Part shown: piece after piece, positions 17,151 through 30,790 of the stretch | Position numbering within the stretch: the stretch's first letter is position 1 | Layout of the letters: every line of letters begins with the position of its first letter | Notes under the pieces: generated by a model | Database searches by the model: none | Told to the model about the DNA's origin: nothing | The model's input: only the letters and a program-made list of their open reading frames with translations | Translations under genes and position numbers: made by a program | Source of the DNA: a virus | Direction: 5' to 3' (one strand) | Length of the DNA stretch: 38,363 nt | IMG/VR virus record: IMGVR_UViG_3300046001_006545 | Location: 1-38,363 of that record

Positions 17151-17275
17151 CCGCCTTCCGCGTCTGCTACTCTGACGGTCCGCCGCGCGTCGTCATGGCG
17201 CATGACATCACGGAGGCACTCCGGTTGGGGCGCCTCTTTTCGGCTTCTGTGATTCGGGTGGTGACGCGTGTCTGA
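17147..17275 (+). CDS. Small protein (42 residues)
   Basis: A small open frame that exactly fills the gap between the coiled-coil gene and the endolysin. It starts at TTG 17147 in a TTGA overlap and ends at TGA 17273-17275, overlapping the endolysin GTG at 17268. Third codon positions are strongly G/C, as in neighbouring genes. The product (starts MTAFRVCYSDG) has no recognised domain. Confidence 0.6.
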   Translation: MTAFRVCYSDGPPRVVMAHDITEALRLGRLFSASVIRVVTRV

Positions 17276-17852
17276 CGACCTCCACGGCTGGCCCATTCCC
17301 GCCAAGATCATGGCGCAGCGCAACTACCCACAGCCCTACGGTCATGGCGGCAAGACGATCGGCCAATGGGGCTGCACGGCTGCAAGTCTCGCCGAAGGCC
17401 AGCGCCTCGCCGGTATCAGGGCTGGTGCAACGCCTCACACGGTCTGTGAGCGCGCATCGACGTGGCTCCCGCCCGTGTGGGCTACCGGCTCGTCTCTGGC
17501 CGTCCTGCCTCACCTGGCGGCGTCTGCGGGGTTCACGGTCAGCCCGGCGTTCACCGTCGGCAAAGGCGGGCTCTCAGCGGCGCAAGCGAGTCTCAAGATC
17601 TGTGACGCCATCGACGGCATGGGCCTTTCCCCAAGGAGGGGATTCGGATGGCTCCAAGTCGACAAGGACGCCGATGGCGTGGGCGACCATTGGGTGCTGG
17701 CCATCGCCTACGATGCCGATTGGATCTACTGCACGGACAGCGCACCCGCGAAGATAACGCCGCTGAACCGCAAGACCTTGCGGGGCCTTGCGGTCTGGGG
17801 GTCTGCGGAGAAGACCTATCAGGTCACGCGGGGCTATTTGCTGGAGGTGTGA
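17268..17852 (+). CDS. Cysteine-peptidase-like endolysin candidate
   Basis: A 194-residue protein. It has GQWGCTAAS near residues 32-40 (candidate nucleophile Cys36) and GDHWVLAIAYDAD near residues 139-151 (candidate His141), followed by WIYCTDSA. This Cys...His...Asp layout, with the His on a strand reading HWVLAIAYD, matches C39-like and related papain-fold peptidases used by some phages to cut peptidoglycan crosslinks. It is the last gene of the lysis block. The start is GTG 17268. It could instead be another papain-like hydrolase. Its last 29 bases overlap the convergent gene. Confidence 0.6.
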   Translation: MSDDLHGWPIPAKIMAQRNYPQPYGHGGKTIGQWGCTAASLAEGQRLAGIRAGATPHTVCERASTWLPPVWATGSSLAVLPHLAASAGFTVSPAFTVGKGGLSAAQASLKICDAIDGMGLSPRRGFGWLQVDKDADGVGDHWVLAIAYDADWIYCTDSAPAKITPLNRKTLRGLAVWGSAEKTYQVTRGYLLEV

Positions 17853-18582
17853 GTCTGGCGGATTCTCTCAATCTCGCCCGCTCTTCCTGCTTGTACTCCC
17901 GCGTCCGCTGGCGCTCACATTGCACGCTGTAGCAGGAGTCTCGCTCTGACGTGTGCAGCGTGACGTCGCCGCACCACTTGCAGACGCAGGCGATGGGCTC
18001 TTTTTTGCGGTGTTCCCGATACGCCGCTTGCTTGGCGATCACGCACGGTGGCGCGCTGCAGTATCGCCCATTTCGCTGGACCTCTGTCCCGCACTCGATG
18101 CACCTCGGCAGCGGACCCGGCTTGGCCCTCGACGGCTGCGGGACCTTGGTGCGATATCCGGCCTTCTTCGCCGCCATGCATGGTTTCGCGGAGCAGTAGT
18201 TTCCGTCGGTGCGGATGGCTGTCCCACACTCAGCGCACGCCTTCGATTTTGCAAGAGGCCGCGCCTTCCTCGCTACCCGCTGGCAGGCAACATCCCGGCA
18301 GTACCGTCCACCGCGCGCCACTGCGATCCCGCATACAGTGCAGGACGTTGGTTTGGGGTATGGCTTGGCGCTGGACCGCTGTTGGCTGTCTCGTCGGTCG
18401 GCACCGGGTGACGCCAGCACCCGGCCAGGACACATGCTGCACGGGCGGAGGTTCTCGTCGACGCAGTTTGTCCCCGCGTCGGCGCCGCAGTCGCCGCAGT
18501 AGGCGTAGGCGGTAATGGGGGTGCGTGGTGTCGGGATGCGGACGGGGTCCGGGCGTGGTTGCTGTGAGTGGCGCAGGATCAT
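17824..18582 (-). CDS. Tandem zinc-finger array protein
   Basis: A 252-residue basic protein from ATG 18582 (ATGA overlap with the upstream stop). It carries an N-terminal Cys module (C29, C32, C40, C48, C51) then four similar units of the form CxxC-x10 to 12-C-x4-C: C81/84/95/100, C116/119/130/135, C161/164/175/180 and C201/204/217/222. Several units contain a YCSxxPC-like phrase typical of treble-clef or zinc-ribbon fingers. The spacers are rich in Lys, Arg and Pro, suggesting nucleic acid binding. Last gene of the - strand operon, overlapping the endolysin end by 29 bases. Confidence 0.75.
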   Translation of the reverse strand: MILRHSQQPRPDPVRIPTPRTPITAYAYCGDCGADAGTNCVDENLRPCSMCPGRVLASPGADRRDSQQRSSAKPYPKPTSCTVCGIAVARGGRYCRDVACQRVARKARPLAKSKACAECGTAIRTDGNYCSAKPCMAAKKAGYRTKVPQPSRAKPGPLPRCIECGTEVQRNGRYCSAPPCVIAKQAAYREHRKKEPIACVCKWCGDVTLHTSERDSCYSVQCERQRTREYKQEERARLRESARLTPPANSPA

Positions 18583-18767
18583 GACTGCACCCGGTACTGG
18601 TACCGAGGCCCAAGGACCCGGGCGGCGCACAGCATCTTCGGTTTGCCCTTGGCGTCAACGCAGGGCTCGCCAGCGTCGGCGAGACAGTCACGGCAGTAGG
18701 CGTAGGCCGATGCTGGCGTGCGGGGAATGCTCGGGCGGGTGTGATGCGAGCGGGGGTGTTGGGTCAT
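18579..18767 (-). CDS. Small zinc-finger protein related to its neighbour
   Basis: A 62-residue protein from ATG 18767. Its core AYAYCRDCLADAGEPCVD, followed by a fourth Cys, closely matches the N-terminal Cys module of the next gene (AYAYCGDCGADAGTNCVD), so the two share a duplicated domain. ATGA overlaps link it to both neighbours. Binding of nucleic acid or protein is possible; the function is unknown. Confidence 0.75.
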   Translation of the reverse strand: MTQHPRSHHTRPSIPRTPASAYAYCRDCLADAGEPCVDAKGKPKMLCAARVLGPRYQYRVQS

Positions 18768-19282
18768 GGGGTGGCCCCGTGGATCGGCATGGCGTTCAGT
18801 TGGCGCTTCACGTCTTCGATTTCGTACTCTGTCCTGCGCATCTCCCACGGTCCACGGTCGATGCCTTGCGCCTCGTAGTAGACGGCGACGTCGGGGTTGA
18901 TGACGCCTTCGGGCATGTCCTTCCGCATCCACGCGATCCACTGCCCATTCTCGTCGTGGAAGCAAGGGCGCTTGACCGTGACCGTGGACGGCAGACCGGC
19001 GGGCAGCGGCGGGTCACCGACGGCCACGCAGGTGATGGCGCAGCGACGTGGCCCCATCATGTGCGCGATCAGTTCTTCGGCGAGACACGTCATTGGCTCG
19101 TGAATGTGCACCATGACGGGGCGCATCGTCAGCGTCAGCGTCTTGAAGTTGTCGATGACCGCTTTGGCGATTTGCTCGCCGCGCACGTAGGCGGGCTCCC
19201 GTTCCATGATCGTACAGTGACGACGGAAGAGGACTTCAAGGCGCTGCGTCAGACGCTGCCGTTGTTGTTCTTGCTCGCTCAC
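18764..19282 (-). CDS. Hypothetical protein
   Basis: A 172-residue protein from GTG 19282 (GTGA overlap). It starts with a charged helix (residues 1-50), followed by a mixed alpha/beta region with HIHEPMTC and ITCVAVGDPP. No known family was recognised. It is in the middle of the second - strand operon. Confidence 0.6.
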   Translation of the reverse strand: MSEQEQQRQRLTQRLEVLFRRHCTIMEREPAYVRGEQIAKAVIDNFKTLTLTMRPVMVHIHEPMTCLAEELIAHMMGPRRCAITCVAVGDPPLPAGLPSTVTVKRPCFHDENGQWIAWMRKDMPEGVINPDVAVYYEAQGIDRGPWEMRRTEYEIEDVKRQLNAMPIHGATP

Positions 19283-20226
19283 TCCCCACCTCCCACCAGT
19301 TTGCGCGCGCGGTCTGCCAGCGCGTCAGTGTCCAGCCACAGCGCCTCATGGTCAGAGACGGCGTGATGGGGGCTCGCCATATCGCGGTCTTTGTAGCCCT
19401 GCGTCATCGTCACAAGATCCCGCAAGATGGCCAGCGCCTTCTCCGCACGGGTCTTCCATTCGTCGCGCGCGGTATTGGACTCGCACGCCACTCCCCATGC
19501 TTTTTGAAAACGGGCCTCGGCATCATCCCGCTCGCTCGCCAGACACCACCGACCGGCGATGGGGGCGGCGGCTTCAAGGATGGCACCGGTTCGATGACGC
19601 ACGCACTTCCACCCGTTGAAATGCGGCGAAGCGTCGGCGTAGCACTCGATGCAGGCATAGTCGGTCTGCTCCCACCCGTCCTCTGCTTTGCGCTTCATGG
19701 CGACGATGTGCAGCCGCATCTCCGCCACCATCTGCTGGGCGGCGTCGCGGTCGGCGGTCATCTTGACGAGGTCGGCTTCGGCTTCCGTGTGGGCGTTGTT
19801 GGCTGCTTCCAGATGGTCCCGCGCGATGGCGAGGTCATGCAATGCGGCGTCGCGCTCGCCCTCGACAAAGAGCCGGTCGGCGACAGCGTCGGCCATCGCC
19901 CGCGCATGCGCTGGGTCAAGCCGCTCCCTCGCCAGCGCCTCCGCTGCGTCTCGCTGGATGGTGAGGGAGGCGAGTTGGTCGCGGAGGGCGGGCGCTTCGG
20001 CGGCGGCTTTGGCGCGTTGGTCTTCGGCGGACCACTTCGCCTCCCACCGTGCCGTCGTCTCGTCACGGCGTGCCTTGAGTCGCGCATCCTTCGCAGCGAC
20101 AGCGTCGGGGTGGTGGTGGCCGCAGTAGCCATCTTTCTTGGCGCCGTGCTTGCACTGAACGTCACGCTTGAACCAGCGTTTACCCGTCCGAATCATCTGC
20201 TTGCACTTCACTTTCTCGTCACCCAT
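19279..20226 (-). CDS. Coiled-coil protein with Cys/His cluster
   Basis: A 315-residue protein. ATG 20226 is used, with an in-frame GTG one codon upstream. The N-terminal region has Cys/His residues (VQC.HGAKKDGYCGHHH) that could bind zinc. Residues 45-175 are an Ala/Glu/Arg-rich coiled coil. A second Cys/His cluster lies near residues 190-220 (ACIECYADASPHFNGWKC..H). Long coiled coils with terminal zinc sites suggest a scaffolding or DNA-associated protein, but the role is unknown. Confidence 0.6.
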   Translation of the reverse strand: MGDEKVKCKQMIRTGKRWFKRDVQCKHGAKKDGYCGHHHPDAVAAKDARLKARRDETTARWEAKWSAEDQRAKAAAEAPALRDQLASLTIQRDAAEALARERLDPAHARAMADAVADRLFVEGERDAALHDLAIARDHLEAANNAHTEAEADLVKMTADRDAAQQMVAEMRLHIVAMKRKAEDGWEQTDYACIECYADASPHFNGWKCVRHRTGAILEAAAPIAGRWCLASERDDAEARFQKAWGVACESNTARDEWKTRAEKALAILRDLVTMTQGYKDRDMASPHHAVSDHEALWLDTDALADRARKLVGGGE

Positions 20227-20894
20227 CACACACCACCCTTGTCAAAGTCGGCCAGGAAATCGATCACACGCACGTCATAGGCGTGCTCTCGCAGGAGAGC
20301 GACGGCGCGGGCGAGGAGGTCGGACGCAGGCGGGGCAGCGCGGCGGACGAGGGTTTGGTATTCGGCATCGTAGTAGATGCCGCCGTTTAGGATCGGTTCT
20401 CCATCCTCGGCGAGGCCAGTCACACGCGCATTGTCCCCGCTGCCATTCGTCACCACATCCCCCATCATCGGCACCTCGCCGCTGTCGTAGCGTGGGCGGG
20501 GGTCGGGTTCGGGTTCGGGAGGTGGCGCGCTTGGATGCACGGCGCAAGCGCCAGACAACTCCGCGCACATGCACGCGTCCTTGACTGGCGGAGACACATC
20601 ACCCGGCACGGCGTCGAAGGCGGCGAGGGCGGCACCAAGCGGCCCCCAATCCTCCTCTCCACCGGTGCACGCCAGCACGACTCGCACCTCGTCAACCAGC
20701 CCGTCCGCCAGCTTCAGCCGCTCCTTCAACGCCTCGCATTGGATGCCGAGGGCGAACAGTTCGGACTCGGCTTTGTCGGCGCGGGCTTCAAAGACCTCGC
20801 GGGCAACACGCTGGCCGTCGGCGAAGATCTTGCTGTTGCGGGCGCGGTCTTCCGCGTCTTCAAGTTTGCTCTGCAATTTCTCAATCTGGCTCAT
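20226..20894 (-). CDS. Coiled-coil protein with Pro-rich linker
   Basis: A 222-residue protein from ATG 20894. Residues 1-70 form a coiled coil. A Pro/Glu-rich linker runs about 120-136, followed by a small alpha/beta C-terminal domain (MMGDVVTNGSGDNARVTGL then GGIYYDAEYQTLVRR) that looks like a short beta-barrel. ATGA and TGATG overlaps link it to its neighbours. No family was recognised. Confidence 0.6.
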   Translation of the reverse strand: MSQIEKLQSKLEDAEDRARNSKIFADGQRVAREVFEARADKAESELFALGIQCEALKERLKLADGLVDEVRVVLACTGGEEDWGPLGAALAAFDAVPGDVSPPVKDACMCAELSGACAVHPSAPPPEPEPDPRPRYDSGEVPMMGDVVTNGSGDNARVTGLAEDGEPILNGGIYYDAEYQTLVRRAAPPASDLLARAVALLREHAYDVRVIDFLADFDKGGV

Positions 20895-22441: not shown

Positions 22442-23143
22442 CTAGAACAGATCCGGCGTGTAGCCCCGCGCAAAACGCTTGCGAGCGATCTCATGATGGG
22501 CCGGGAGCTCCTCCGACGTGATGCACCGACGGCCTTCTGATGCGGCGGCGAGGGCGGTTGTGCCCGAGCCACAGAACGGATCGACGATCAGATCACCGGG
22601 GCGGGAGTAGTCGCGGACGAGGGCGCGCATCCCGTGATGGTCCTTGGACCCCGTGACTCCGAGGTAGCCGTGCCCATGGCGTGGCGTGTTCACGAGGTAC
22701 CAGCCCGGTCGGCTCCCCTGGTCCTGCTCATCCATGGTGCCCCGTGGGCGGGCGATCATGATGTGGTCGACCTGAGACGCGGGGCCGTCGCTGCAGAAGC
22801 GTGGCGGGGCACCTCGTTTGACCCAGATGACCGGCGCAAAAACGTACCAGCCTTGCGCCTCCCATGCGGCGGCGTGCCACTCGCGGCTGATGTGGTCGCC
22901 AAAGATGACCGCCCATCGCTTGGTCCGTGGCGCCCACGATTCGGCGAACGCGTGCGCATCCGCCAGCGTGATCGGGCGGTAGCCGATGTCTGTCGTTGCG
23001 GCGACCTCGTGCGACCCGTGGCTCATGTAGCCCTCGTCGGTGCGGGCACTATAGGGAGGGTCCGTCACAACCGCGTCACACGTCGTCACATCGGCCAGCG
23101 TGTCCTGCCAGCGGCCAAGGCGTAGGTCGATGGGGTTGGTCAC
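22442..23143 (-). CDS. DNA methyltransferase (beta-class amino-methyltransferase)
   Basis: A 233-residue protein from GTG 23143 (GTGA overlap). DPPY at residues 28-31 is the catalytic motif IV, and DPFCGSGTT at about residues 188-196 is the S-adenosylmethionine-binding motif I. Catalytic motif before binding motif marks the beta class of N6-adenine or N4-cytosine enzymes. No restriction endonuclease is adjacent, so it probably protects phage DNA from host restriction or marks it for control. Last gene of the first - strand unit, stop TAG at 22442. Confidence 0.88.
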   Translation of the reverse strand: MTNPIDLRLGRWQDTLADVTTCDAVVTDPPYSARTDEGYMSHGSHEVAATTDIGYRPITLADAHAFAESWAPRTKRWAVIFGDHISREWHAAAWEAQGWYVFAPVIWVKRGAPPRFCSDGPASQVDHIMIARPRGTMDEQDQGSRPGWYLVNTPRHGHGYLGVTGSKDHHGMRALVRDYSRPGDLIVDPFCGSGTTALAAASEGRRCITSEELPAHHEIARKRFARGYTPDLF

Positions 23144-23472
23144 TTGCGCACCCCGGCGACGCGTTGGACTTCTGCGACGGTGGTCTCCGTCGTGTGCCTC
23201 TCGGAAATGCACCAATGGTCGCCGTCATAGGTGCGCGTGTCGGGCGTGCACACACGGAACACCTTGGAGCGGTAGCCGATGAGGCTCACCACCATGCCAT
23301 CCGCGAGGTCACTCTCGTCGAGAGTCGTCTCCTCTGGCACGTCGAGGGGCTCGACGACGGGGATGGCGTGAAAGCCGATGCAGTCGGCTTTGTGCATCAC
23401 CAAGAGGGCGATCCCCATCGTCGGGGTCGTTGGCACGTCGCCGCACATGGGACACCAGTATTTTGTGGTCAT
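23140..23472 (-). CDS. Zinc-ribbon-like protein
   Basis: A 110-residue protein starting MTTKYWCPMCGD, a CxxC knuckle, with further Cys at about 31, 75 and 88. It is coupled by ATGA and GTGA overlaps to the genes on both sides. It may be a small nucleic-acid-binding protein, but no family was recognised. Confidence 0.6.
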   Translation of the reverse strand: MTTKYWCPMCGDVPTTPTMGIALLVMHKADCIGFHAIPVVEPLDVPEETTLDESDLADGMVVSLIGYRSKVFRVCTPDTRTYDGDHWCISERHTTETTVAEVQRVAGVRK

Positions 23473-24894: not shown

Positions 24895-25070
24895 TTCTTT
24901 GTCTCCCTGAGTTTCTTGAGGTCGATCGCGTCGTCGACCATGTCGTCTGACGTGTGGACGGTGTCTCTTTCGGCGCAGCGGGCGCACACCGGCGCCCATG
25001 TCGGGTAGTGGTCACAGATCATGCATGACGTCGATGGTGGCTCGTCACGGTTGATTGCCTTGATGGTCAT
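24891..25070 (-). CDS. Small zinc-ribbon protein (59 residues)
   Basis: From ATG 25070 (ATGA overlap with the RusA-like gene). Contains CMICDHYPTWAPVCARC, two CxxC pairs 9 residues apart, a compact zinc-ribbon, followed by an acidic helix. The stop overlaps the next ATG. The coupling at both ends and the Cys pattern support a real gene. It may bind nucleic acid with the recombination proteins. Confidence 0.75.
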   Translation of the reverse strand: MTIKAINRDEPPSTSCMICDHYPTWAPVCARCAERDTVHTSDDMVDDAIDLKKLRETKK

Positions 25071-25465
25071 GGGCGGGTGACGACAAGGCGGGTCGACGGC
25101 GCATCCCCGTAGACCTTGCTGCAGATGATGGTGATTATCTGGCTGTCGTCGACCCAGACGATCCCATTCAAGGCGTCGGTAGCCAACTTGAGCAGGTTGT
25201 CGACATCGGGCTTTGACGTTGGCGCCGTGTTGGCCTCACGCTTGGCGCGGCTCCAGCTTTTCGGCTGAACGCTGGTGAACGTGGCGACCAGACACAGCGG
25301 GCCAGACAGGGGCAGGCCCTCGACCCCTGCCAGGAGAGCCATGGCGCGCCCTGACAGCGTGTCTTCGGCTTTGCGGGTGGCTGCAGGGGTATAGACCCGG
25401 CCCTTCGTGGTGGCCCGTCCACGGCCCTTGGCGATGGGAGCACCGGGGATGGTGATGTCAATCAC
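25067..25465 (-). CDS. rusA: RusA-type Holliday junction resolvase
   Basis: A 132-residue endonuclease expected to cut four-way DNA junctions formed in recombination and replication. The family motif SKPDVDNLLKLATDALNG is at residues 83-100, followed by VWVDDSQI, which carries further catalytic acidic residues. The N-terminal GRGRATTKGRVYTP stretch also fits RusA. Length is typical (about 120-140). The start is GTG 25465, overlapping the ERF gene end. It sits with ERF and Gp157-like genes in a recombination operon. Confidence 0.88.
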   Translation of the reverse strand: MIDITIPGAPIAKGRGRATTKGRVYTPAATRKAEDTLSGRAMALLAGVEGLPLSGPLCLVATFTSVQPKSWSRAKREANTAPTSKPDVDNLLKLATDALNGIVWVDDSQIITIICSKVYGDAPSTRLVVTRP

Positions 25466-26210
25466 GCTTCACCTCGAGGATCAGGGCGTCCATGCGCTGC
25501 AGCATCTTGGCGGCCATCTCGGAAGGCGCCACATCAGGTGACACCTTGCGGGCGATCAGGGCGTCTAGACCAGCCCGCAGGCCCTTGCCCTCTGGGCTGT
25601 CGTCGCAGATGTTGGTGGCCTCGCTCGTGGCGTAGGCAACATCCGCCGCGCTGGCGGACAGGTCGTTGACGATCGACGACGCCAAAAGCAACGCGCGGCG
25701 CTTCATCTCCGACATGGCGGGCGGCAACTGGCGGGCGGGTTGCTGGCGCTGGACCTGCCGTTGGTTGTCGCGGCTGTCGTGGTCAAGGTCTGTCCCTTCC
25801 TCGACACGGGGCAACTGCAGGAGGTCGCGGAGCAGGTAGCCTAGCGACGCCGTGCGGGCAGCGGCCAGCGCCTTATCCAGCGGGCGACCTTTCTCGGGGA
25901 TCACGGGCCATTCGCAGGCAATGGGCAGGGAGCCCCCATCAGCGTGGACCACCACCCACTCCGCGAGAAGGACGGCAAAGGCGCCTTGCTCACGCTCGAA
26001 GACCTTAGGCTCGCGGAGCATCGACGACGACGGCACCACAGCCAATCCCGCTGATGCCAGGGCTGCCTTGGCTTCGGCGATCATGGCTTCGGCGCTGGCG
26101 TAGTTGTACTTGTGGAACTTGTTGGTCGCGTCCTTCTCGACGCTGACGGCGACGGCTTGGGCACGGGAAAGAGCAGCAAAAAGCTCGGCCTGTGGGTTTG
26201 TCTCGGTCAT
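25458..26210 (-). CDS. erf: ERF-family single-strand annealing protein
   Basis: A 250-residue protein from ATG 26210, with SD GGAGG about 7 bases upstream. The N-terminal domain has features of ERF recombinases: NKFHKYNYASAEAMIAEAK, then GLAVVPSS, and later DKALAAARTASLGYLLRDLL at about residues 115-134. ERF proteins anneal single strands and help circularise or recombine phage genomes. The C-terminal region (about 150-250) is variable and helical. First gene of the first - strand unit, divergent from the replication operon. Confidence 0.85.
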   Translation of the reverse strand: MTETNPQAELFAALSRAQAVAVSVEKDATNKFHKYNYASAEAMIAEAKAALASAGLAVVPSSSMLREPKVFEREQGAFAVLLAEWVVVHADGGSLPIACEWPVIPEKGRPLDKALAAARTASLGYLLRDLLQLPRVEEGTDLDHDSRDNQRQVQRQQPARQLPPAMSEMKRRALLLASSIVNDLSASAADVAYATSEATNICDDSPEGKGLRAGLDALIARKVSPDVAPSEMAAKMLQRMDALILEVKRD

Positions 26211-26229
26211 GTGTGGGCCTCCTGACGCA

Positions 26230-26259
26230 TTCGTAGCACTGGACATGACTCCACTGCAA
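26230..26259 (-). promoter_or_regulatory. Promoter for the recombination operon
   Basis: On the - strand: TTGCAG (26259-26254), 18-base spacer, TACGAA (26235-26230). The ERF start at 26210 has SD GGAGG. A TGGA...TCCA inverted repeat (26239-26252) lies in the spacer and could be an operator for the adjacent ribbon-helix-helix protein. Confidence 0.65.
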
Positions 26260-27894: not shown

Positions 27895-30263
27895 TGGGCT
27901 GGACCAAGCAATCAATCGAAGACGTCAAACGCGCCGCCAACATCGACGAGGTGGTGGGGGACGATGCCAAACTGACGCGAGAGGGCGACGACATGGTGGG
28001 GTGCTGCACCCTGCCAGGGCACAAGGATGACACCCCGTCGCTTCGGGTGAGCCCGATCAAGGGCCTTTGGCGATGCCACGGCTGCAACTCTGGCGGGTCC
28101 GCTGTCGACTGGCTGATGATGCGGCACAGCATGAAGTTCCCCGACGCCATGCGGGCGCTGTCAGGCAGGACTGGCATCCCCCTCGTCGAGGAAACCAAGG
28201 CCGGGAAGTCCTCGAGGCGCCTCGTTGCCTCCTACCAGTACCAGACGGCTGCAGGTGAAACCCTGTACGTCATCGAGAGGTGGGAGCCAGGGAAGCAGGG
28301 CCGCAGCAAGGACATTCTGCAGCGTGGCGCTGACGGGTCCTATGGCAAGCACCCACAGCAGGTGCTCTACCGCCTGCCCGAGGTGCTGACGGCGGTCGCG
28401 ACACAGCTGCCCGTCTACATCTGCGAGGGGGAGAAGGCCACGGAAGCCCTCGTGAAGTTGGGGGTTTGTGCCACGACTCACGCGGGCGGGGCGAGCGCCG
28501 TCAAGACGTGGCTCGTTGGTGGCTTTGTGGAGCCGTTGCGCGGGGCCGACGTGGTCCTTGTGCCAGACCACGACGACCCAGGCAGGAAGTTGATGGCCCG
28601 CGTTTCCGCCATCGTCAGCACGGTGGCGCGGTCGGTGACGACGGTTCACCTTCCCGTGACCGGCGACGGTGACGACGCGGTGGAGTGGATCGCAGCGGGG
28701 GGTACCAAGCGGGACCTCGAGGGCATGGCCGAAGATTCGGCGGGCTTGGCGCAAGCGGAGAACGCGTCATGGAAGTCGATGCTTCGGCATGGGCGGGACA
28801 GCCTGCGGGGCTCACCCGGGAATCTCGAGCTTGTGCTTGAGAATGACCCGATGGTCCGGGGCTTGTTTGCCTATGACGAGTTCGCTTCTCGCGTCGTCAT
28901 CACGAGACAGCCGCCGTGGTCAGAGCGCAACGCCACCTATCCACGCGCCCTCGTCGATGCCGACATCGTCCGGCTGGCCGTCTACATGGAGAAGGCCGTG
29001 GACGCCGACTTCGCGACCACCACGATCGGTGCCGTCGTCTCGTCAGTCGCCGACCGTGCCGCGTTCAACCCCCTGACGGACTGGCTCGGGCGCCTGTCGT
29101 GGGACGGGACGCCGCGCCTGTCCAAGTGGCTGGCCACCTACGCCGGGGCCGACGACAATGCCTACACGCACGCTGTGGCGCGGGCTTGGGCCATCTCCAC
29201 GGTGGCTCGAGCACTCCGGCCAGGGTGCCAAGTCGACACCACCCTTGTGCTCGAGGGTACCCAAGGTAAGGGAAAGTCCAGCCTGTTGCGCGCCCTCGTC
29301 GGCTCGGAATGGTTCATGGACCACCTGCCCGACTTCTCCAGCAAGGACGCCGCGATCCTTGTCGCCAAGGCTTGGGTCCATGAGCTCTCGGAGTTGGCCA
29401 CTCTCTCGAGGTCCGAGGTCGAGAAGATCAAGCAGTTCCTTTCGCAGCGCCATGACGTCTACCGGGCGCCCTATGCCGCCAACACGATCGACGTGCCCCG
29501 CAAGTGTGTGTTTGCTGCCACGACAAACCGGAGCGACTACCTGCGGGACACCACGGGCAACCGGCGATTCTGGCCCGTGAAGACCACGGCGATCGATGTT
29601 GCTGCCATCGCCCGAGACCGTGACCAGATCTGGGCAGAGGCTGTTGTGGCCTTCAGGGCAGGTGAGGGCTGGCACATCAGCGATCCCGAAGTGCTGGCGC
29701 TGGCGCAGGAAGAGCAGAGCAACCGGGTGGAGGTCGACCCCTGGCTTGACGCGGTCGCCCGTTTCGTGGAAGCTGTGGACCAGACCACCACAGCGGACTG
29801 CCTCAAGCAGATCGGCGTGGAAGTGTCCAAGCGCACACCGCGTGATGGTGAACGGGTGTGCGGGATTCTTCGCTGCCTCGGATGGACCGAGGAACGCCAG
29901 CGCACCACGACAGGCCGAGTACGGGTCTGGAAACCAAAACCAAGTGGACCAGAGGGTGGACCAGAGCTGGACCAAAGGCCTTTGGTCCACACTTTGCCGC
30001 ATTCCAACGCCGTTTCAGAGGCTGGACCAAAGGGACCAGAGAAAAACCTCAAAACACCTGTGGAAGTGGTTGGGGCTCTGCACACCACCACGGTGGGACC
30101 ACACGTTACCACTCCTGTAGATCTTTCATTTTCCTTTGGTCCCTTTGGTCCATTGGTCCCAGGGCGTCCTGATGCGGCGAAAAGTGGACCAGAGGTGGAC
30201 CAAAGGGCTCCGGTCCTTTGGTCCACTGCGGACGATGGTCCAGACCCATGGAGTGGGGAATGA
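27894..30263 (+). CDS. Bifunctional primase-helicase (CHC2 zinc finger, TOPRIM, VirE-like ATPase)
   Basis: A 789-residue replication protein; ATG 27894 is preferred, with GTG 27891 in frame. The zinc-binding primase domain has CTLPGHKDD near residues 37-47 and CHGCNSGG near 61-68. The TOPRIM-like part has ICEGEKATEAL (about 176) and VPDHDDPGR (about 222). The C-terminal ATPase has Walker A EGTQGKGKSS (about 453-462), then KAWVHELSEL and AATTNRSDYLRD, typical of the VirE/virulence-associated E family. The last 110 residues are low-complexity, Pro/Gly-rich and probably disordered; their DNA contains the iteron cluster. It probably primes and unwinds at the phage origin. Confidence 0.9.
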   Translation: MGWTKQSIEDVKRAANIDEVVGDDAKLTREGDDMVGCCTLPGHKDDTPSLRVSPIKGLWRCHGCNSGGSAVDWLMMRHSMKFPDAMRALSGRTGIPLVEETKAGKSSRRLVASYQYQTAAGETLYVIERWEPGKQGRSKDILQRGADGSYGKHPQQVLYRLPEVLTAVATQLPVYICEGEKATEALVKLGVCATTHAGGASAVKTWLVGGFVEPLRGADVVLVPDHDDPGRKLMARVSAIVSTVARSVTTVHLPVTGDGDDAVEWIAAGGTKRDLEGMAEDSAGLAQAENASWKSMLRHGRDSLRGSPGNLELVLENDPMVRGLFAYDEFASRVVITRQPPWSERNATYPRALVDADIVRLAVYMEKAVDADFATTTIGAVVSSVADRAAFNPLTDWLGRLSWDGTPRLSKWLATYAGADDNAYTHAVARAWAISTVARALRPGCQVDTTLVLEGTQGKGKSSLLRALVGSEWFMDHLPDFSSKDAAILVAKAWVHELSELATLSRSEVEKIKQFLSQRHDVYRAPYAANTIDVPRKCVFAATTNRSDYLRDTTGNRRFWPVKTTAIDVAAIARDRDQIWAEAVVAFRAGEGWHISDPEVLALAQEEQSNRVEVDPWLDAVARFVEAVDQTTTADCLKQIGVEVSKRTPRDGERVCGILRCLGWTEERQRTTTGRVRVWKPKPSGPEGGPELDQRPLVHTLPHSNAVSEAGPKGPEKNLKTPVEVVGALHTTTVGPHVTTPVDLSFSFGPFGPLVPGRPDAAKSGPEVDQRAPVLWSTADDGPDPWSGE
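29945..30242. repeat. Iteron cluster, putative replication origin
   Basis: At least 14 copies of GGACCA or its complement TGGTCC occur in about 300 bp, in both orientations: starting near 29945, 29957, 29968, 29983, 30023, 30033, 30096, 30137, 30146, 30154, 30185, 30196, 30219 and 30236. Many extend to (G/A)TGGACCA(A/G)AGG. Positions 29968-29989 form a perfect 22-bp palindrome with half TGGACCAAAGG. The stretches between (for example 30040-30056 and 30121-30136) are A/T-rich compared with the genome. Repeats plus A/T-rich DNA inside a replication gene resemble the lambda ori within O. Confidence 0.75.
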
Positions 30264-30790
30264 GCGCACCTGAACAGAAGGCGCTGGACTGGCTGGCTGC
30301 CAATGTCCGCAGGCCAGCGGGTCCGCTCAAGGTGATCGCCTGTGGTGGGCGGGACTACGCCGATGGGGCCAGGGTCGACCGCATTCTGTCCACCATCCAC
30401 GCGGCGCTGCAGGTGGATGACCTGATCCACGGTGGCGCCAATGGTGCTGACGCCCTCGCCGCCTCTTGGGCTGTCCGGGCTGGTGTCCGGGTTCGGGAGT
30501 ATCAGGCGGATTGGCAAGCTCTCGGGAGGGCTGCAGGCCCCTCGAGGAACGCGGCCATGTTGATGGCTTGCCCTGCCCTCGTTGTTGCGTTCCCAGGTGG
30601 GCGAGGGACAGCCGACATGGTGGCGCAAGCCGGGAAAGCGGGTGTGCCCGTGTGGACGGTCAAGGCCCGGCTCGAGGTGTGGACGCCAAAGGATGCCGCA
30701 CCGGAAGAAGAAGAGCGACGCCAACGACTGGCCAGGGCGATGGTGGCTGGCACTGCGGCGGCTGCAAAGCCTAAGCGGTGGTCACGGTAG
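30260..30790 (+). CDS. SLOG-family (DUF2493-like) protein
   Basis: A 176-residue protein from ATG 30260 (ATGA overlap with the primase stop). It has VIACGGRDYADGARVDRIL at residues 25-43, LIHGGANGADALAASWA at about 55-71, PSRNAAMLMACP and VVAFPGGRGTADMVAQA, the Rossmann-like nucleotide-binding signature of the SLOG/DUF2493 (YspA) family. These proteins are thought to bind nucleotides or nucleotide-derived signals. In phages they commonly sit near replication genes, but the role is unproven. The last 30 residues are basic and disordered. Confidence 0.82.
   Translation: MSAPEQKALDWLAANVRRPAGPLKVIACGGRDYADGARVDRILSTIHAALQVDDLIHGGANGADALAASWAVRAGVRVREYQADWQALGRAAGPSRNAAMLMACPALVVAFPGGRGTADMVAQAGKAGVPVWTVKARLEVWTPKDAAPEEEERRQRLARAMVAGTAAAAKPKRWSR

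Follow-up and report, generated by a model that had tools for sequence, protein, structure and literature searches.

A conserved array of putative zinc knuckles, variable in unit number, in the recombination and methylation operon of uncultivated phages

The window analysed here is an entire IMG/VR virus record of 38,363 bases. Its leftward early genes span positions 26246 to 17824, and the rightward genes, which comprise the late genes and other early genes, wrap round the ends of the record. Besides the annealing protein Erf, the resolvase RusA and an N6/N4 methyltransferase, the leftward operon encodes Gp157. Its last two genes are that of a cysteine-rich array protein and, upstream of it with a 4-base ATGA overlap, one for a protein of 62 residues. 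No promoter or terminator was found close to the array gene. The features are as follows.

17824..18582, minus strand: array gene, 252 aa with 22 Cys and an ATG start; acidic N-terminal module, four knuckle units and a basic tail ending ...LTPPANSPA (translation)
18430..18498, minus strand: N-terminal module (N-module), C29-x2-C32-x7-C40-x10-C51, residues 29-51, acidic (alignment, charge count)
17917..18342, minus strand: region of units 1-4, C81 to C222; in each, a Cys4 knuckle precedes a basic stretch with predicted helix (spacing, model, profiles)
18579..18767, minus strand: 62-aa one-module gene with C25, C28, C36 and C47; partial paralogue of the N-terminal region of the array gene (translation)
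17268..17852, plus strand: convergent gene closing the late operon and sharing bases with the array gene's 3' end; unannotated; marks the conserved position (maps of relatives)
22442..23215, minus strand: N6/N4 DNA methyltransferase, same leftward operon (Pfam PF01555, E 1e-16)
25067..26246, minus strand: RusA resolvase and Erf annealing protein, head of the leftward operon (Pfam RusA, E 7e-27; PHROG 155 Erf, E 3e-19)

The position of the array gene, towards the end of the methyltransferase operon, is conserved in relatives. The convergent gene at 17268..17852 is without a match in Pfam or PHROG, and in array-carrying relatives its homologues are found next to the array gene or close by, again convergent. 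Maps of the relatives also identify the methyltransferase as the conserved upstream neighbour of the array gene or of whatever replaces it. Two further genes of this region may be mentioned: 19279-20229 (minus strand) encodes 316 aa in which a Cys/His start (weak DUF5763) leads into a coiled-coil-like stretch, and homologues of the adjoining gene, 20226-20894, occur close to the array gene in several relatives.

The sequence-only reading of this DNA had described an N-terminal Cys module followed by four CxxC units of nearly constant spacing, and the translation, the spacing and shuffled controls bear this out. The first unit reads C81-x2-C84-x10-C95-x4-C100, those at C116..C135 and C161..C180 likewise have the x10 interval, and the last is C201-x2-C204-x12-C217-x4-C222; the linkers between units are basic and Pro-rich. 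Four regular units are beyond chance, as composition-preserving shuffles of the protein gave a mean of 0.26 units and reached four in none of 2000 cases.

As a single query against viral contigs, the array protein found no relative. Relatives were reached through the convergent neighbour gene, which led to three contigs that carry a homologue of the array gene at the equivalent position; profiles built from these, together with a search of records holding related terminases, then yielded about 20 further uncultivated phage records that carry the N-module plus knuckles. No array or N-module relative turned up in sequenced phages. A set of 50,697 phage records yielded no match to either the capsid protein or the array protein, and for the terminase the best matches to isolates reach about 31% identity. 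Profiles of the array family and of TerL found nothing in GTDB genomes, and hence gave no host. The window phage thus belongs to an uncultivated group without a known host, and because its capsid and array proteins are unmatched in those phage records, the family would escape annotation.

Conservation among the relatives strongly supports the zinc-array reading, since all 12 core cysteines (the module plus two units) are invariant across 17 proteins whose identity to the window protein is 24-54%. Loss of the cysteines among homologues had been named beforehand as the observation that would count against such an array; the reverse was found. Every invariant ligand column is Cys, and the 17 homologues share no conserved His, so this is not an array of the C2H2 (Cys2His2) kind. 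Three other residues of the N-module, G33, D42 and R54, are likewise invariant in these homologues, and the module itself is found in every array homologue counted. Values of dN/dS within the family range from 0.02 to 0.18 in close pairs and reach 0.48 between the window and one relative, L015. Taken together, the alignments and substitution rates indicate that the array genes are real and constrained, with the Cys ligands as their most constrained part.

Unit number varies among these constrained genes. Most relatives carry two units, G040 and G046 carry one, G012 carries three and the window four; G058 also has three, one of them ahead of the N-module, and G010 combines four regular units with two irregular Cys clusters, giving a family range of one to about six. 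In the one-unit forms the array stops early and is followed by another small gene with an ATGA overlap; one such form shares 95% of the compared protein with a two-unit relative. A search with the unit profile also found, in G014, a protein with a ribbon and one knuckle but no N-module.

Charge is divided unevenly along the protein. The array protein has a net charge of +24 over 252 aa and its paralogue +6 over 62; per residue, no other listed gene of the phage has a product with so high a net positive charge. The N-module, by contrast, is acidic in all members (-3 over C29-C48 in the window, -2 to -7 across the family), and the stretches after the units are positive in all members, except after the extra N-terminal unit of L036. 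This division bears on the idea that the protein has a structural or metal-handling role, such as zinc storage or scaffolding, without a specific nucleic-acid or host target. The high Cys content and the variable unit number would suit such a role; the conserved acidic/basic division and the invariant G33, D42 and R54 of the N-module nevertheless point to specific contacts, and we regard it as very improbable.

The history of the units can be read to some extent from profiles. Among two-unit members, unit 1 and unit 2 represent separate types of long standing: with leave-one-out profiles the right type was preferred for each of the five representatives, and this preference was clear in four and marginal for the second unit of L147. 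Units 1-3 of the window score as the first type (12.5 vs 8.7, 19.4 vs 7.5 and 14.8 vs 9.2 bits), units 2 and 3 match one another best, and unit 4 shows no clear type by the same profiles. In L036 it is the second type that is doubled (24.7 and 26.2 vs -1.3 and 6.7). That the window multiplied the first type and L036 the second indicates that expansion occurred more than once, through different units. Across the whole family, units are not more alike within proteins than between them (permutation p 0.55), because units 1 and 2 are old positional types.

The suggestion that the array was built by repeat expansion is thus supported by the profiles, but the expansion is old: the window units are just 52-59% identical to one another in DNA, which rules out recent tandem duplication at the DNA level. 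A repeat search returned the N-module pair and two short, chance-like pairs, and nothing else. That pair reflects the neighbouring gene, which had been described as a one-finger paralogue, and this description holds. The N-module region and the 62-aa protein share 52% identity (E 5e-15), and the DNA is 71% identical over 73 nt, which identifies the 62-aa gene as a partial duplicate of the N-terminal region of the array gene. What was copied is the N-module, a different zinc module from the array units. No orthologue of the 62-aa gene was found in the relatives fetched; it was found in the window only.

A broader claim of the sequence-only reading, that this phage relies heavily on small zinc proteins, proved overstated. 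Outside the array and 62-aa genes there are 7 CxxC motifs, of which one lies in the primase-helicase; 2.6 would be expected (p about 0.016). Among the genes that had been listed as carrying CxxC, those at 23140, 24891, 27670 and 32398 do so and that at 32195 does not. The 110-aa product of 23140-23472 (minus strand) has a C2HC-like pattern, CPxCG...H...C, which G010 and G014 conserve; it is a real candidate for a small zinc protein. Most homologues of 32195-32401 (plus strand) align without its Cys-rich start, and distant ones share the TRDDLIRxVxGxQWA part; this part has a homologue immediately ahead of the array gene in G012 and G055. Some halovirus genomes are likewise described as encoding several small CxxC proteins of unknown function, though the part of that account considered here describes no tandem array of one unit type (PMC7230728).

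What kind of zinc module the units represent was approached by modelling. A whole-protein AlphaFold model from the single sequence was set aside (pLDDT 48). With 17 alignment rows, a model of the N-module and units 1-2 gave pLDDT of about 75-85 for the units, with the N-module less sure and an overall pTM of 0.27. Each modelled unit has two short strands forming a hairpin and then a helix at the second Cys pair, in the manner of a treble clef; the helices (98-107 and 133-146) start between the cysteines of the second pairs, C95/C100 and C130/C135. The nearest solved folds are weak matches, to YacG (4tma, Z 2.6) and the FCS finger (2w0t, Z 2.0), two proteins that are related in zinc-finger classification (PMC4999995). 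The best Foldseek E values lie between 0.02 and 0.3, none of them significant; against the PDB nothing fell below E 0.27, and the top rows, C2H2 fingers with TM 0.1-0.2, were disregarded. Viral fold neighbours are phage NinG and HNH proteins and, lower down, proteins named as DNA-binding phage zinc fingers. The units are accordingly predicted to be treble-clef-like knuckles with weak similarity to YacG, FCS and phage NinG/HNH knuckles.

Known families approach these proteins without claiming them. Isolated units touch DUF2116 (PF09889, "probable treble clef"), with 4 of 29 matching at E<=1 and a best value of 6e-4, whereas the whole window array protein, at 9.7 bits, stays far under the gathering cut-off of 26.8. 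The 62-aa protein resembles PF24623 (Phage_zn_bind_8), a putative DNA-binding phage zinc finger domain, at E 0.0052, with 16.9 bits against a cut-off of 24. Positions 11-42 of that profile fall on residues 20-51, so the CxxC...C spacing is shared and the N-module region can be aligned, but here the sub-cut-off module heads a multi-knuckle array; the Pfam scans reported no PF24623 match for the array protein. With the YacG/FCS/TRASH group the units share a CxxC-G-x(n)-YCS-x3-C style of knuckle and the helix at the second Cys pair; they differ in the weak Z and in giving no sequence family match at E<=1, and YacG is a single-finger protein.

The NinG and HNH neighbours raise the possibility that the array is the leftover of an HNH/NinG-type nuclease, whose DNA-binding knuckles were kept without the catalytic domain and then multiplied. 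These proteins have similar knuckles and rank with the best fold neighbours from phages, one unit gives a weak Pfam NinG match (E 0.09), and an HNH_3 endonuclease of G010 (L029:1396-2049, plus strand) ends in two CS..C-type Cys4 knuckles. That endonuclease, however, is not among the matches listed by the unit-profile search, and Pfam and PHROG scans of array members found no nuclease family beyond weak knuckle matches. Such an origin would moreover have to be old, because the layout of module plus two units is common to the most distant members. We consider it improbable.

A target that is a protein is a serious rival to nucleic acid, because YacG, among the nearest solved folds, acts on a protein. 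The knuckles would then bind a host enzyme, in the way of gyrase inhibition by YacG or through a defence or transcription protein, and extra units would add targets or avidity. YacG binds GyrB rather than nucleic acid, and small gyrase inhibitors are known to be encoded by phages (PMC10886550). In structural comparison unit 2 comes closest to the YacG zinc finger, but the Z of 2.6 is near noise, and neither whole proteins nor units match the YacG family in Pfam at E<=1, in a search whose HMMER filters drop weak matches. Replacement of the gene in some relatives and its variable unit number also fit a protein target, while the strong purifying selection in close homologues is unlike that of many arms-race genes. 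On balance this explanation seems rather unlikely, though the least so of the three.

The replacement is seen in relatives without an array, which mostly have, at this end of the operon, one protein with a single zinc ribbon. In G004, G008, G018, G020, G023 and G024 a different protein with one Cys4 ribbon is encoded by the gene or genes that follow the methyltransferase, and in G007 and G047 the ribbon protein has an added knuckle. A protein with the conserved stretch DLFSMGVFDD..RPKQHKPAPVRCLEDEL and one Cys4 ribbon lies directly after the methyltransferase at L163:10996-11415, with equivalents in G004, G008, G018, G020, G024 and G047; the G023 copy of the ribbon protein has no Pfam match. 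On the terminase tree the array label needs two changes, which is consistent with an old array gene that was replaced in one lineage.

The reading we favour, at about even chances, is that the array protein is flexible, holds several zinc ions and serves as an early nucleic-acid-binding accessory in the recombination and methylation operon, where its acidic N-module would contact a partner. The N-terminal module, acidic and of Cys4 type, and the four treble-clef-like Cys4 knuckles would together hold a predicted five zinc ions, with a short basic helix after each knuckle and flexible Pro/Lys/Arg-rich linkers between. The basic knuckles may bind phage DNA or transcripts by avidity while the acidic N-module touches a partner protein, serving an early accessory role beside recombination (Erf, RusA) and DNA methylation; unit number would change as lineages duplicate or lose knuckles. 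Zinc occupancy, the detailed fold and the role of the protein are inferred, and nucleic-acid binding is plausible from charge, fold class and operon company. That said, basic linkers also occur in protein-binding proteins, and some relatives manage with a single zinc ribbon at this place.

Tandem arrays of zinc fingers are characteristic of eukaryotic regulators, and to our knowledge few have been described in phage. A more ambitious interpretation, which we think improbable, is that the phages evolved an array of variable copy number whose targets, nucleic acids or host proteins, differ as units duplicate, swap and vanish between lineages. Its logic would be like that of the eukaryotic arrays, with the difference that the units here are Cys4 treble clefs. 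With its metal ligands conserved, its genome position stable and its members spanning one to about six units, the family offers a natural series for relating unit number to binding. Elsewhere in the window, 30218-30790 (plus strand), downstream of the primase-helicase, encodes a YspA/SLOG-family (YAcAr) protein.
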